Source of the DNA: Radicibacter daui
Lineage (GTDB): Bacteria > Pseudomonadota > Alphaproteobacteria > Radicibacterales > Radicibacteraceae
Length of the DNA stretch: 64,000 nt
Assembly (NCBI GenBank): GCA_030657355.1
Contig: CP131056.1
Span: 1,694,501-1,758,500, forward strand
Reading direction: 5' to 3'
How positions within the stretch are numbered: position 1 is the first letter of the stretch; every line of letters begins with the position of its first letter. A program made the translations under genes and the position numbers. The notes under the pieces are model-generated. The model had not been told where the DNA came from. It worked only from the letters and a program-made list of their open reading frames with translations, and did not search any database. This document shows positions 18,367 to 30,868 of this stretch, piece by piece.

Positions 18367-20091
18367 ATGGCGGCTAGAATTTCGCGTGCGGCCTATGCCG
18401 ACATGTTCGGCCCCACCGTGGGCGACCGGGTGCGGCTGGCGGATACCAATCTCATCATCGAGGTGGAGAAGGACTTCACCATCTATGGCGAAGAGGTGAA
18501 GTTCGGCGGCGGCAAGGTCATCCGCGACGGCATGGGCCAGTCCCAGACCCCGCGCGGCAATGGCGGGCCGATGGCGGCGGTCGATACCGTCATCACCAAC
18601 GCGCTGATCCTCGATCACTGGGGCATCGTCAAGGCCGATATCGGCATCCGCGACGGGCGCATCGTCGGCATCGGCAAGGCGGGCAATCCGGATACGCAGC
18701 CGGGCGTCACCATCGTGGTCGGCCCGGGCACGGAAGCGATTGCCGGCGAAGGCAAGATCGTGACCGCCGGCGGCATCGACGTGCACATCCATTTCATCGC
18801 CCCGCAGCAGATCGAGGAGGCGCTGGCCTCCGGCGTCACCACCATGATGGGCGGCGGCACCGGCCCGGCAACCGGCACCAACGCCACCACTTGCACGCCC
18901 GGCGCCTGGCATATGGAGCGCATGCTGCAGGCGGCGGAATCCTTCCCGATGAATCTCGGGTTCTTCGGCAAGGGCAATGCGAGTTTGCCGGCGGCTCTGA
19001 AGGAGCAGGTGCTGGCCGGGGCCTGCGGCCTCAAACTGCATGAAGACTGGGGCACCACCCCTGCCGCCATCGACTGCTGCCTTGGCGTGGCGGACGAGAT
19101 GGATGTGCAGGTGCTGATCCATACCGACACGCTCAATGAAAGCGGCTTTGTCGAAGACACGATTGCCGCGTTCAAGGGCCGCACCATCCACGCCTTTCAC
19201 ACCGAAGGCGCGGGCGGCGGCCATGCGCCGGACATCATCAAGGTGTGCGGCGAGCAGAACGTCATCCCGTCCTCGACCAATCCGACGCGGCCCTACACGG
19301 TCAACACGCTCGACGAACATCTCGACATGCTGATGGTGTGCCACCATCTCGACCCGTCGATTTCCGAAGATGTGGCCTTTGCCGAAAGCCGTATCCGCAA
19401 GGAGACGATTGCCGCCGAGGATATCCTGCATGATCTCGGCGCCTTCTCGATCATTTCCTCGGACAGCCAGGCCATGGGCCGCGTGGGCGAGGTGATCATC
19501 CGCACCTGGCAGACGGCGGACAAGATGCGCAAGCAGCGCGGCCGTCTGGCGCAGGAGGTGGGCGATAACGACAATGCGCGCGCCAAACGCTATGTCGCCA
19601 AATACACCATCAATCCGGCGCTGGCGCAGGGCATTGCGGCCCATGTCGGCTCCATCGAAATCGGCAAGCTCGCCGATCTGGTGGTGTGGTCGCCGGCCTT
19701 CTTCGGCGTGAAGCCGGAACTGGTCATCAAATGCGGCACCATCGCCATGGCGCCGATGGGCGATCCCAACGCCTCCATCCCCACGCCGCAGCCGGTGCAC
19801 TACCGCCCGATGTTCGGCGGGTTCGGCAAGAGCATGATCAAATCGGCCGTCACCTTCGTCTCCGGTGCCGCGATTGCCGATGGCATCGACCGCAAATATG
19901 GGCTGGAGCGCACGCTGCTGGCGGTCGCCAACACCCGTGGCGGCCTCACCAAATCCATGATGGTGCACAATAATTACTGCCCGAAGATCGATGTCGACCC
20001 CGAGACCTACGAGGTGCGGGCCGATGGGGAACTCCTGACCTGCGAGCCGGCGGACGTGCTGCCGATGGCCCAGCGCTATTTCCTGTTCTAG
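18367..20091 (+). CDS. ureC: Urease subunit alpha (catalytic)
   Basis: 574 residues. Nickel ligands are seen in [13 protein letters not shown], the carbamylated Lys in [17 protein letters not shown], further His in [10 protein letters not shown] and [13 protein letters not shown], and the mobile flap Cys/His in [22 protein letters not shown]. All catalytic elements appear intact. GAGGGGAC precedes the ATG. A glycosyltransferase gene, not ureE, follows. Confidence 0.98.
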
Positions 20092-26839: not shown

Positions 26840-26956
26840 CCGGCAGGGCCGCCGATCCTTCGCGGGATCACCGCCAGTTTTCTCCATTTTTGGCTCCCGA
26901 AGTTGACAGGTTGCCGCACCTCACGGCTTGATCTTGCAAAAGCCGCCAGGGGAGGC

Positions 26957-27520
26957 ATGCCGGTCACCATGTCCGCGACCGTCGATATCGAAGAGCTGGT
27001 CCTGCTGCCAGGGCAGGAGATCTTTGCCGAGAAGTCTCTTGGCGATGCGATGTATCTCATCAAGCAGGGGGCGGTGGAAATCTGGGTGGGGCAGGCCGCC
27101 ACCCCCACCATCGTCGCGCGGCTGGAAGAAGGGGCCGTGTTCGGCGAGGCTGCCCTCGTCAACGATGCTCCGCGCAACGCCTCGGCCCGTGCTGCCGGGC
27201 ATGGCTGCGTCTTGCTTTCTGTTCCGCGGGAGGCCTTCCGCCGCCGCCTTGATGAAGCACACCCGATGATCGTGGCGGTGGCCCGGTTGCTGATCGACGG
27301 GCTGGTGGCCGCAAACCGGCAATATGAGCGCCAGTCAAAAGAGGCGGCGGGCCTGCGCGAGACGGTCAGCGCGCTGAGGGCGGCGGCACAGGTGGCCGGC
27401 ACCCGCCGGGATGAGGCGCTGAAGGCCGAAGCTGCGGCCATGCAGGAAAACCGGCGCCTGCGCGAAAAGGCCCTCGCCTATATCGAGGCCCATCAGGAAA
27501 AGCCGCCGCGCCCCCGTTGA
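26957..27520 (+). CDS. Cyclic nucleotide-binding domain protein with C-terminal coiled coil
   Basis: 187 residues from the ATG at 26957. The CAP_ED domain covers residues 10-110, with the phosphate-binding cassette FGEAALVNDAPRNASARA, including the conserved Arg. There is no DNA-binding HTH; instead residues 115-180 are Ala/Arg/Glu-rich and predicted coiled coil. It would respond to cAMP or cGMP by partner binding. The start is not certain: a GGGGAGG lies just before, and the ATG at 26969 is an alternative. Confidence 0.82.
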   Translation: MPVTMSATVDIEELVLLPGQEIFAEKSLGDAMYLIKQGAVEIWVGQAATPTIVARLEEGAVFGEAALVNDAPRNASARAAGHGCVLLSVPREAFRRRLDEAHPMIVAVARLLIDGLVAANRQYERQSKEAAGLRETVSALRAAAQVAGTRRDEALKAEAAAMQENRRLREKALAYIEAHQEKPPRPR

Positions 27521-27538
27521 GGGCGGTTGGGCAGACCA

Positions 27539-27575
27539 TAAAAAAGGACTGCTGCGATGCAGCAATCCTTTTGAT
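27539..27575. terminator. Terminator between the cNMP-binding gene and the small-protein pair
   Basis: GGACTGCTGC pairs with GCAGCAATCC (one mismatch) around GAT. Six or so A precede it and four T follow, giving T-tracts on both strands. It can end both the plus-strand cNMP gene and the minus-strand small-protein transcript. Confidence 0.75.
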
Positions 27576-27600
27576 TTCACGCTCGTGCTTCAGGCTGCGA

Positions 27601-27741
27601 TCAGCCGCCCAGACGCGTCAGCAGCACTTCGTAGCGGCCGATATCGACATCGTACTCACGGGTGCGCAGCACGGCCGCGGCAATGCGCAGACGATCAAGC
27701 TGGTTGCGGTAACGGGCGAGAAGCAGGCGGCGGATAGCCAT
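27601..27741 (-). CDS. Small protein A of a tandem paralogous pair (46 aa)
   Basis: 46 residues beginning MAIRRLLLARYRNQLDRL and ending LLTRLGG. Helical, basic, with the block QLDRLRIAAAVLRTR in the middle. AGGA lies 9 nt before the ATG at 27741. It aligns without gaps to the neighbouring small protein B over all 46 residues, with 23 identities, so the pair arose by duplication and both frames are likely real. Unknown function; no signal peptide or true membrane segment. Followed by a terminator. Confidence 0.72.
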   Translation of the reverse strand: MAIRRLLLARYRNQLDRLRIAAAVLRTREYDVDIGRYEVLLTRLGG

Positions 27742-27770
27742 GATGAAATTCCTGTAGGGGCGGGGCGCGA

Positions 27771-27911
27771 TCAGGCGCCGGCGGCCAGGAGAAGCTGCTC
27801 GTTGCGGCTGATTTCCTCGTTGAAATCGCGGCGACGGAGCACGGCGGCGGCAAGACGCAGCGCATCGAGCTGCACGCGGGCACGTTCAATGATGAGCGGT
27901 TTGCTGGCCAT
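27771..27911 (-). CDS. Small protein B of a tandem paralogous pair (46 aa)
   Basis: 46 residues, MASKPLIIERARVQLDAL at the start and EQLLLAAGA at the end, with the shared block QLDALRLAAAVLRRR and E-x-x-I-x-R-x-E. Upstream of protein A on the same strand, 29 bases between stop and next ATG, so an operon. An in-frame ATG at 27923 (four residues earlier, preceded by GGAAGG) is an alternative start. Unrecognised family. Confidence 0.72.
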   Translation of the reverse strand: MASKPLIIERARVQLDALRLAAAVLRRRDFNEEISRNEQLLLAAGA

Positions 27912-28116
27912 GATCTGAAGCATCCTTCCGTTCGGCGCCGGCCGGTTCGGCCCTTGCTGATGACGAAAATATGCATCGGCGCACCCCGCCTGCGCCAACG
28001 CGCTTTCTGCATGGGCACTCATTGTGCAGTGCAAAGCGTGGCACGCAAACCAGCCATGCGAACGGGCCGGTCCGGCGGGCAGCAGCAGGAGGTGGAAGCG
28101 GGAAGGGGGCGGCGCG

Positions 28117-28629
28117 TCAGACTTCGGTGAAGCTGAACATGTTGGGCGCGCGCTCGATGATTTCCTCGATGATGTCGGTGGCGATATCGAGGTTGTTCTT
28201 CATGTCCTGGTCGATCACATCGGCATAACGCGGCTCGTTGAGCTTGGCGTGGCACGAGTGCATGCGCTTCAGCTCTTCCATGAACATCTCCCGCGCCCCC
28301 ATGGGCAGGGCGTTGGACATGGAGAGCACGAAGAAGAAACGGATAGAGGCCCGGATCTGGCAGCCCAGCATATGCGCGTTGAGCTGCATGAAGTTGCGGT
28401 TCAGCTTCTCGTCAGCGCCCTCGGCCAGGTTCTGCAGGCGCTGGTCGATCATGATGGAAAAGGTTTCGCATTCGGAAACCTTGGCGCGGAACTTGTAGTA
28501 GAGCTCGTAGTTTTCCTTGGTCGCCTCGGTCTCTGCCCGGCGCGCCATCTCGGCGAGTTCGGCGACCTGTCCCTTGTAGGATTTGAGGAAGTTGACCGCT
28601 TCGGAGCGCTTGAACTTGCGGCGAGCCAT
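28117..28629 (-). CDS. Conserved-looking hypothetical protein, 170 aa
   Basis: I do not recognise the family. 170 residues, mostly helical, with a basic N-terminus (MARRKFKRSEAVNFLKSYKG). A central segment contains YYKFRAKVSECETFSIMIDQRL, and a hydrophobic patch RFFFVLSMSNALPMG is too short and mixed to be a confident membrane helix. The C-terminus is acidic. There is AAGGGA 8 nt before ATG 28629. It lies downstream of sspB on the same strand, separated by about 110 bases. Good codon bias supports a real gene. Confidence 0.7.
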   Translation of the reverse strand: MARRKFKRSEAVNFLKSYKGQVAELAEMARRAETEATKENYELYYKFRAKVSECETFSIMIDQRLQNLAEGADEKLNRNFMQLNAHMLGCQIRASIRFFFVLSMSNALPMGAREMFMEELKRMHSCHAKLNEPRYADVIDQDMKNNLDIATDIIEEIIERAPNMFSFTEV

Positions 28630-28739: not shown

Positions 28740-29243
28740 TCAGGGCTTCTTGCGGAAGGCGTCCAGCGCCACCACCTTGCCGGTTTCGGGCTCCCCGCCC
28801 TCTTCGTCGACCGGCTTTTCTTCCTCGCCGGCGTCTTCGGCAGTCTCGTCGGCGAGAGCTTCCAGCTCCTCATCCTCGTCGTCGGCCTGTTCGGTCTGGA
28901 ACTGGAGAGCGAAATTCACCGCCGGGTCGGCGAAGGTGACGATGGCCTCGAAGGGAATTTCCAGCCTTTCGCCGGCACCGCCGAAGCTGAGCGTCACGCC
29001 GAAACCGTCACGCCGCACCATCAGGTCGAAGAACTGGAATTGCAGCACGATGGTCATTTCGCGCTTGTACTGGGCGCGAAGGAACTCCGGCATGCGCACG
29101 CCGGGATGGCGGGTCAGGAAGGTGATGTAGAAATGATGGTCACCCGGCAGTCCATTGGCGGCAACCTCCTCCAGCGCTTCGCGCACAACGCCGCGAAGGG
29201 CCCGTTCCACCATCTTGTCGTACCGCAGGTGAACTGTCGTCAT
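28740..29243 (-). CDS. sspB: ClpXP adaptor SspB (alphaproteobacterial type)
   Basis: Binds the ssrA tag and hands tagged proteins to ClpXP. 167 residues. The globular domain has IRYDxxVxxALRGVVR-like LRYDKMVERALRGVVREAL, GLPGDHHFYITFLTRHPGV, EMTIVLQFQFFDLMV and LEIPFEAIVTFADPAVNF. A flexible acidic linker ends in the ClpX-binding tail VVALDAFRKK. I start at ATG 29243 (MTTVHLRYDK); a longer frame reads into the ssrA 3' flank. The tmRNA gene lies just upstream on the same strand, so adaptor and tag source are neighbours. Confidence 0.92.
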   Translation of the reverse strand: MTTVHLRYDKMVERALRGVVREALEEVAANGLPGDHHFYITFLTRHPGVRMPEFLRAQYKREMTIVLQFQFFDLMVRRDGFGVTLSFGGAGERLEIPFEAIVTFADPAVNFALQFQTEQADDEDEELEALADETAEDAGEEEKPVDEEGGEPETGKVVALDAFRKKP

Positions 29244-29359
29244 CTCTGTCCGTTTTTTCTGCCGCTGTCCGGCCTGCCCTGACGGCGGGGCCGGTTGCTT
29301 CCTTGCCTTGAAGTCCGCCGCCACGCGTTTGCTGTCGGGCGCCGGGCCCCTTGAATTCA

Positions 29360-29679
29360 GTGGGGGGCTTCTGTTGCCCGGTGCCCCCCGAACCGCGCTT
29401 ACCTAAAGATTAGGCAGCGATGGCCATGCGATGGTTATCGTTGGCACTTGTGAGGTTTGGTCCGATGACGGTGGTACCATGCCGGGCAAAAACTTGATCT
29501 TTGAGCGTGCGTCAATCCTGTTTCGCCCCCCTGTTGCCTGCGGCCCTTGAAGCACTTTCGTGCCCCGGTTCCGCCTGGCATGTGGTGGAGGCGCCGGGTA
29601 CCGCCCCCGGGTCCGCTCCGCCTATTCCATCAAGCGTTTATCACCATAGTCGGACGCCAAAGGGATCCCGGACGCCGAC
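29360..29679 (-). ncRNA. ssrA: tmRNA, circularly permuted two-piece form
   Basis: On the minus strand the acceptor piece comes first. A T-arm CCGGG-ggcggta-CCCGG and the acceptor strand CGCCTCC run into ACCA ending at 29583. An intervening segment with a GCACGAAAGTGC hairpin follows. The coding piece starts near 29530 with GGGGGCG, which pairs with CGCCTCC over 7 bp (one G-U). The tag frame is 29445-29410: GCC AAC GAT AAC CAT CGC ATG GCC ATC GCT GCC TAA, giving ANDNHRMAIAA. A GGGGGG...CCCCCC hairpin at 29362-29389 closes the coding piece. Permutation is the known alphaproteobacterial arrangement. The outer ends are approximate. Confidence 0.92.
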
Positions 29680-29685
29680 GGGGTT

Positions 29686-29714
29686 AATATAGGGAGGCAG
29701 TGCAGGGGCCGAAA
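29686..29714 (-). promoter_or_regulatory. Candidate ssrA promoter
   Basis: Minus-strand TATATT (29691-29686) with TTTCGG (29714-29709) 17 bases upstream. It places a start just before the acceptor piece of the tmRNA. The -35 is weak. Confidence 0.5.
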
Positions 29715-29802
29715 GAGGCTTTTGGCGGAGAAGGGGCCAAAAGCCCTGCTTTTTGCACAAAGCAGCCATCAGCCTTCTGACGAATGTCGTCTTATCTTAT
29801 TG

Positions 29803-29935: not shown

Positions 29936-30868
29936 ATGACGATCAAACCCGAACAGCAGGCTGAAATCGAGGCTCTGCGCGCCAACCAGACGCTGACCCG
30001 CCGTGCCGTCAGCCCCGGGCTTGAGGAGATCCTCTACGAGGCGATTCCCGTTCTCGATCATGGCTTTGTCCGCGTGATCGACTATATGGGCGACGATGCG
30101 GCCATCGTGCAGGCGGCGCGTGTTTCCTACGGCGCCGGCACCAAGGCCGCCCGCTCGGATGAGGGGCTGATCCGCTACCTGCTGCGCCACGCCCACACCA
30201 CGCCGTTCGAGATGTGCGAGATCAAGTATCACATCAAGCTGCCTATCTTCGTGGCGCGCCAGTGGATCCGTCATCGCACCGCCAATGTGAATGAATATTC
30301 CGGCCGCTATTCGGTGATGGAGGATGAGTTCTACATCCCGCGCACCGAGCAGCTTGCCGCCCAGTCGCGCTCCAACCGTCAGGGCCGCGGCGCCGTGCTG
30401 GAGGGCGAAGAGGCTGTGCGCGTCCTGCAGCTGCTAAAAGACGATGCCCGCCAGTCCTACCAGCACTATGTGGAGATGCTGAACGAGGATGGCGACGGCA
30501 ATGTGATCGACGAGAGCCGCGATGGCCTTGCCCGCGAACTCGCCCGCATGAACCTGCCGATCAATCTCTATACCCAGTTCTACTGGAAGATCGATCTGCA
30601 CAACCTGCTGCATTTCCTGCGGCTGCGGGCTGATTCCCACGCCCAGTACGAAATCCGCGTCTTTGCCGAAGCCATGCTGGATACTGTCCGGCGCTGGGTG
30701 CCGATCGCCTGGCAGGCCGGTGAGGACTACAAACGCGGCGCCGAGACCCTCTCGGCTCCGGCGCTGGATGTGGTGCGCCGCCTGCTGGCCGGGGAGGAGG
30801 TCGCCCAGGCCGATACCCGCCTCAGCAAGCGTGAGTGGGACGAACTGATGGCCTCGCTCGGGCGTTAA
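29936..30868 (+). CDS. thyX: Flavin-dependent thymidylate synthase
   Basis: Makes dTMP from dUMP with FAD and methylene-tetrahydrofolate. 310 residues. The ThyX motif [15 protein letters not shown] is present at about residues 112-126, preceded by [29 protein letters not shown]. The C-terminal [19 protein letters not shown] is also typical. A folate-sparing alternative to ThyA. Confidence 0.97.

Follow-up and report, generated by a model that had tools for sequence, protein, structure and literature searches.

Two adjacent genes on the minus strand of the 4.26-Mb contig C1 of the source genome, designated P2 and P1 in the order in which they are read, are, on the evidence of their sequences, tandem duplicates of one small gene. 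They lie within the 64,000-nucleotide stretch of DNA analysed here (the window; Table 1). The two frames, the half identity of their products and the shared core QLDxLRxAAAVLRxR had been proposed in an earlier note on this DNA, and all three agree with the coordinates, TGA stops and alignment obtained here. The encoded proteins agree at 23 of 46 positions in an ungapped alignment, whereas 20,000 shuffles of a single copy with the methionine fixed gave a mean of 5.9 identities and a maximum of only 15. At the DNA level, 87 of 141 bases are the same. A search of the genome itself with P2 recovers P1 at E = 8.1e-7 and finds no third copy at E <= 10. P1 and P2 look like a genuine but lineage-restricted orphan pair.

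Table 1. Features of the P2-P1 locus and its surroundings (positions within the window)
Feature	Position	Strand	Remarks
P1, second gene, 46-residue protein	27601..27741	-	46 codons + TGA
P2, first gene, 46-residue protein	27771..27911	-	46 codons + TGA
Shine-Dalgarno-like AGGA	27750..27753	-	8 bases 5' of P1 ATG; read from sequence
Shine-Dalgarno-like GGAAGG	27924..27929	-	12 bases 5' of P2 ATG (long spacing); read from sequence
Intrinsic terminator (predicted)	27542..27572 (approx.)	both	pattern scan and folding
Terminator-like stem	27973..28001	-	between 170-aa gene and P2; pattern scan
Convergent gene	26903-27520	+	cyclic-nucleotide-binding domain
133-aa ORF	27517-27918	+	covers both copies, no stop
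170-aa gene	28117-28629	-	
SspB	28740-29324		ORF as listed
tmRNA	29359-29718	-	Rfam alphaproteobacterial and permuted models; tag ANDNHRMAIAA; between SspB and ThyX
ThyX	29936-30868		

Coding potential and constraint

Codon usage was scored with a model built from 39 long ORFs, which were chosen mechanically within the window by length. P1 reaches 0.617 and P2 0.636 bits per codon, which correspond to the 95.6th and 96.5th percentiles of 344 gene segments and, against 669 stop-free shadow frames, to the 98.7th and 99.4th percentiles. In both genes the assigned frame has the highest score of all six. The score is a poor discriminator between strands: one antisense frame, that of the 133-aa plus-strand ORF, scores 0.467 in P1 and 0.491 in P2, and the antisense and sense scores of the neighbouring 170-aa gene are tied (0.495 versus 0.490).

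The copies differ at 54 of 138 bases, with 15, 15 and 24 differences at codon positions 1, 2 and 3, respectively (32, 32 and 23 identical bases of 47 each when the stop codon is counted). When the same substitutions were placed randomly in 20,000 trials, at least 23 residues were retained with P = 0.0017 and 0.0030, and at least 23 residues together with the lack of any stop codon with P = 0.0011 and 0.0016. Comparison of the copies by dN/dS, a check proposed in the earlier note, gave NG86 values of dN 0.45 and dS 0.92, which are rough because the sequence is so short. Taken together, the codon usage, the comparison of frames, the substitution pattern and the dN and dS values point to two gene-like, protein-coding sequences that have been under purifying constraint in the past, so that the earlier reading of both frames as real genes holds.

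Start sites and transcription unit

An alternative in-frame ATG at 27923, four codons upstream of the P2 start, directly follows the GGAAGG sequence, and a P2 of 50 residues is thus possible. The mechanical list of ORFs begins the P2 frame still further upstream, at a TTG at 28034 (87 aa); the segment 27912-28034 scores -0.247 bits per codon in this frame, a non-coding value. Of the previous description of P2 as exactly 46 codons, the frame is retained and the start is left between the ATG of the 46-residue form and the one four codons upstream.

The pair is followed by a strong predicted terminator, confirming one suggested before, with a stem of 12 pairs in the minimum free energy structure or 13 in the centroid structure; none of 200 shuffled sequences was as stable (z = -4.10). 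As it is scored on both strands, the convergent gene could use it as well. A terminator-like stem separates the 170-aa gene from P2, suggesting that P2 and P1 probably form their own unit. The pattern scan detected no sigma-70-type promoter in positions 27400-28300. The common strand, the gap of 29 bases and the single terminator make a P2-P1 operon plausible. An attenuator is described in PMC12218461 in the leader of a Sinorhizobium DUF1127 gene. The idea of an attenuator in the P2 leader was considered and dropped because the wider leader shows no unusual degree of folding (z = -0.27), a weak stem being a partial test of it.

Search for relatives

Neither protein was assigned to a family in Pfam, NCBIfam, PHROGs or PADLOC, as the earlier note had anticipated in finding no family it could name; no anti-phage defence model of PADLOC matched either protein at E <= 1. 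Part of these family searches used P1 without its first residue, and the Pfam search was repeated with the full-length protein. With P2 as the query, no tblastn match at E <= 1 was obtained in phages and plasmids. Scans of assembled contigs, which require a short peptide pattern and may omit the source genome and its near kin, yielded 54 pattern matches in viral contigs and 590 in genome contigs, of which 0 were confirmed as relatives. The single row returned by a sequence search of the PDB with P2, YqeY at E = 0.18, was dismissed as a chance match. A literature search found no paper on such a pair, which by itself is no proof of absence.

P2 alone matched 5 of 58 genomes at E <= 1, namely the source genome and four weak cases (E 0.23 to 0.58). 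A profile built from the two sequences matched 39 of 385 genomes of the class at E <= 0.1, including the source genome, which is present by construction; about 37 matches are expected by chance, and all the outside matches were taken, as a set, to be fortuitous. The best of them (E = 0.0018) lies in an open frame of 701 residues and covers 22 of these. In four other orders, two selected through homologues of the 170-aa gene and two through SspB, with some genomes overlapping the 385, the profile matched 0 of 4, 0 of 82, 0 of 17 and 0 of 17 genomes at E <= 0.01. Inspection of equivalent positions gave the same result: no P1/P2-like frame occurs at 19 loci of the 170-aa gene in other genomes (best outside match E = 1.3) or at 29 SspB loci of other genomes (best outside match E = 1.1), within flanks of at most about 1.5 kb, some of them ended by contig ends. 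The SspB loci are the best 30, that of the source genome included, of 221 genomes with a match.

Since P2 finds P1, a copy with 50% identity is detectable by this method. The source genome is the sole representative of its order in the genome set, all the others belonging to other orders, so that the absence of relatives applies to those other orders. The earlier note had named a lack of homologues in related genomes as grounds for rejecting its reading; none appeared outside the source genome, and, as every genome searched came from another order, this limits the claim of conservation and leaves the frames standing as genes.

Genomic neighbourhood

The match of the tmRNA to the alphaproteobacterial Rfam model is the basis on which the organism is called alphaproteobacterial here. 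Of the 29 SspB loci of other genomes, 11 have ThyX close by; none has the 170-aa gene or the gene for the cyclic-nucleotide-binding protein within about 1.5 kb. Relatives of the 170-aa protein, at 21-45% identity, comprise two further matches in the source genome and matches at E <= 1e-5 in 23 of the 384 other genomes of the class; the 19 fetched loci contain no SspB, ThyX, STAS or cyclic-nucleotide-binding neighbours. Neither NCBIfam nor PADLOC matches the 170-aa protein, and Pfam gives weak hits below the cut-off; this protein may represent an undescribed family. From these loci, the stretch that holds the P2-P1 pair appears to be specific to its lineage.

Elsewhere in the window, an Rfam match to 5_ureB_sRNA at 18519-18820 (-) lies antisense within the gene for the urease alpha subunit (18367-20091, +), and may for this reason reflect coding conservation instead of an RNA.

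Predicted structure and charge

AlphaFold2 models, computed for monomers only on two-row alignments, predict a two-helix hairpin for both proteins, with helices at residues 2-25 and 31-45 in P1 (mean pLDDT 89.2, pTM 0.64) and at 3-25 and 28-43 in P2 (mean pLDDT 87.0, pTM 0.60). P1 contains 10 arginines among its 46 residues (22%) and no lysine, giving a net charge of +5; P2 contains seven arginines (15%) and one lysine, with a net charge of +2. The first helix (residues 3-25) carries +5 in P1 and +2 in P2, and the second (residues 28-43) carries -1 and -2, respectively. Of the "basic amphipathic helix" described earlier, the basic character stands and the amphipathic one is no more than ordinary, as about half of 5000 shuffles (2614 and 2578) equal or exceed the hydrophobic moment of residues 3-25. 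The moment calculation therefore gives no backing to the roles as adaptor, regulator or RNA-binding pair for which the note had cited this helix.

Foldseek comparison of the P2 model with the PDB returned 16 matches at E <= 10, headed by chains of human topoisomerase I, and none at E <= 0.001, so that the fold matches are not significant. Dimerising hairpins are among these weak matches: 1jm0, a designed four-helix bundle model, at E 8.8 (TMq 0.85), and 2ijj, the ColE1 Rom protein, at E 7.6 (TMq 0.51).

Comparison with known small proteins

Rop/Rom of ColE1 is a helical hairpin, two copies of which make up an RNA-binding, antiparallel four-helix bundle. P1 and P2 share with it the predicted hairpin; however, the structural match is not significant, P1 and P2 are known as predicted monomers, and the pair comes from the 4.26-Mb contig, not from ColE1. 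Another point of comparison is DUF465/YdcH (PF04325), comprising short charged proteins of similar length, two of which, read as 57 and 66 residues, score over the cut-off elsewhere in the source genome. P1 and P2, in contrast, match 0 Pfam families, and hhalign against DUF465 gave a score of 12.8 over 19 columns with 1.3% probability; among 100 shuffles the 95th percentile was 11.7 and the best score likewise 12.8.

By size, composition and predicted helices, the nearest kind of protein is DUF1127 (PF06568), represented by the Agrobacterium SDPs, Rhodobacter CcaF1 and E. coli YjiS. In PMC12501420, DUF1127 proteins are described as small and arginine-rich (14% arginine on average), with two predicted helices, often present in several copies per alphaproteobacterial genome, and carrying a domain whose role in binding RNA or protein is still debated. 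A high arginine content and two predicted helices are found in both P1 and P2. However, PF06568, which has 10 matches over the cut-off in the source genome, gave none for the pair up to E = 10 with HMMER filters on. Most of the fetched DUF1127 members of this genome have a DIG motif after an LxxL stretch (one has DMG), whereas the DIG of P1 is out of register and P2 has EIS in its place. By eye, the shared core of P1 and P2 is missing from the eight members fetched of the ten that match. The hhalign score against DUF1127 is 13.8 over 8 columns, with 1.9% probability; the 95th percentile of 100 shuffles is 12.3 and their maximum 17.4. On the profile and hhalign results, the pair is thus placed in no known family.

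Two DUF1127 genes of the source genome adjoin each other at C1 52617-52694 and 52869-52961, forming a second neighbouring pair of small arginine-rich genes of the same family.

Proposed function and alternative explanations

Judged from the predicted fold and composition only, the likeliest role, reached by inference, is that of a small accessory regulator whose arginine-rich first helix would bind RNA or protein. One small gene was duplicated in tandem to give P2 and P1, which are probably transcribed together into a bicistronic message that stops at the shared terminator. Each product, as modelled, folds as a hairpin with an arginine-rich helix 1 and a slightly acidic helix 2. From the computed properties (gene-like status, duplication, no detectable relatives in the sets searched and the predicted fold), we infer that the hairpins may form homodimers or heterodimers and that helix 1 may dock onto RNA or onto an acidic patch of a protein. 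The mode of action would resemble that of the arginine-rich DUF1127 proteins, as which P1 and P2 possibly work, without membership of that family. Against this model stand the net charge of just +2 in P2, the ordinary amphipathicity of helix 1, the lack of significance of the fold matches, the two-row alignments behind the structures, the poor strand discrimination of the codon score and the negative promoter scan, and as a whole we put it forward tentatively, as possible but short of probable. A bolder version, in which a new two-helix family of one isolated order was duplicated into a heterodimeric RNA- or kinase-binding regulator, similar to DUF1127 but of independent origin, is unlikely.

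That P1 and P2 are instead highly diverged, YjiS-like members of DUF1127 is slightly more doubtful again. Their arginine contents fit the average reported in PMC12501420, the two predicted helices agree, R.R..LD.L resembles by eye the RTRQALDRL of a true member, and P1 contains a DIG. Some DUF1127 genes of this genome also lie near one another, with starts 252 bases apart in the pair mentioned above and 690 bases apart in another (C1 2841880 and 2842570). Although the hhalign score lies above the 95th percentile of shuffles, the match spans only a few columns at low probability and was surpassed by the best shuffle, the DIG stretch lies outside the aligned columns and is EIS in P2, and the family profile remains silent. 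A rather unlikely, though more serious, alternative regards the genes as a recent, lineage-specific pair whose constraint is weak or shifting and which plays no important part in the cell. The absence of any convincing relative outside the source genome in the sets searched agrees with this, as does the unconserved stretch beside SspB. However, at their present divergence the copies still retain frame, length and core, and the substitutions are non-random, suggesting that the protein was constrained for a while.

The remaining explanations fare worse. An opposing pair, for example of the toxin-antitoxin or regulator-antiregulator kind, would account for the adjacency and equal size of the genes and for the more basic character of P1 relative to P2; against it, PADLOC has no match at E <= 1, and the two members of a toxin-antitoxin system are seldom paralogues of the same length; this arrangement is very unlikely. 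Still less likely is that the frames arise by accident, from a duplicated sequence without coding function or opposite a gene on the plus strand. The 133-aa plus-strand ORF does run through both copies with a positive codon score, and in another antisense frame the copies agree at 21 of 46 residues. However, the frame of the 133-aa ORF retains just 14 of 46 residues between the copies versus 23 in the assigned frame, the second antisense frame has two stops in the P1 copy and codon scores of -0.907 and -0.685, and the assigned frame outscores the other five in both copies.

As a genome feature the pair is ordinary, and the chance that it represents a new regulator is modest; at present it is one more lineage-restricted pair of small proteins. 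Paralogous copies of this sort offer one of the few arguments for the reality of an unannotated small ORF when only one genome is at hand. Should P1 and P2 prove to be a regulator, alphaproteobacteria would have a further, independent example of very small helical proteins rich in arginine.
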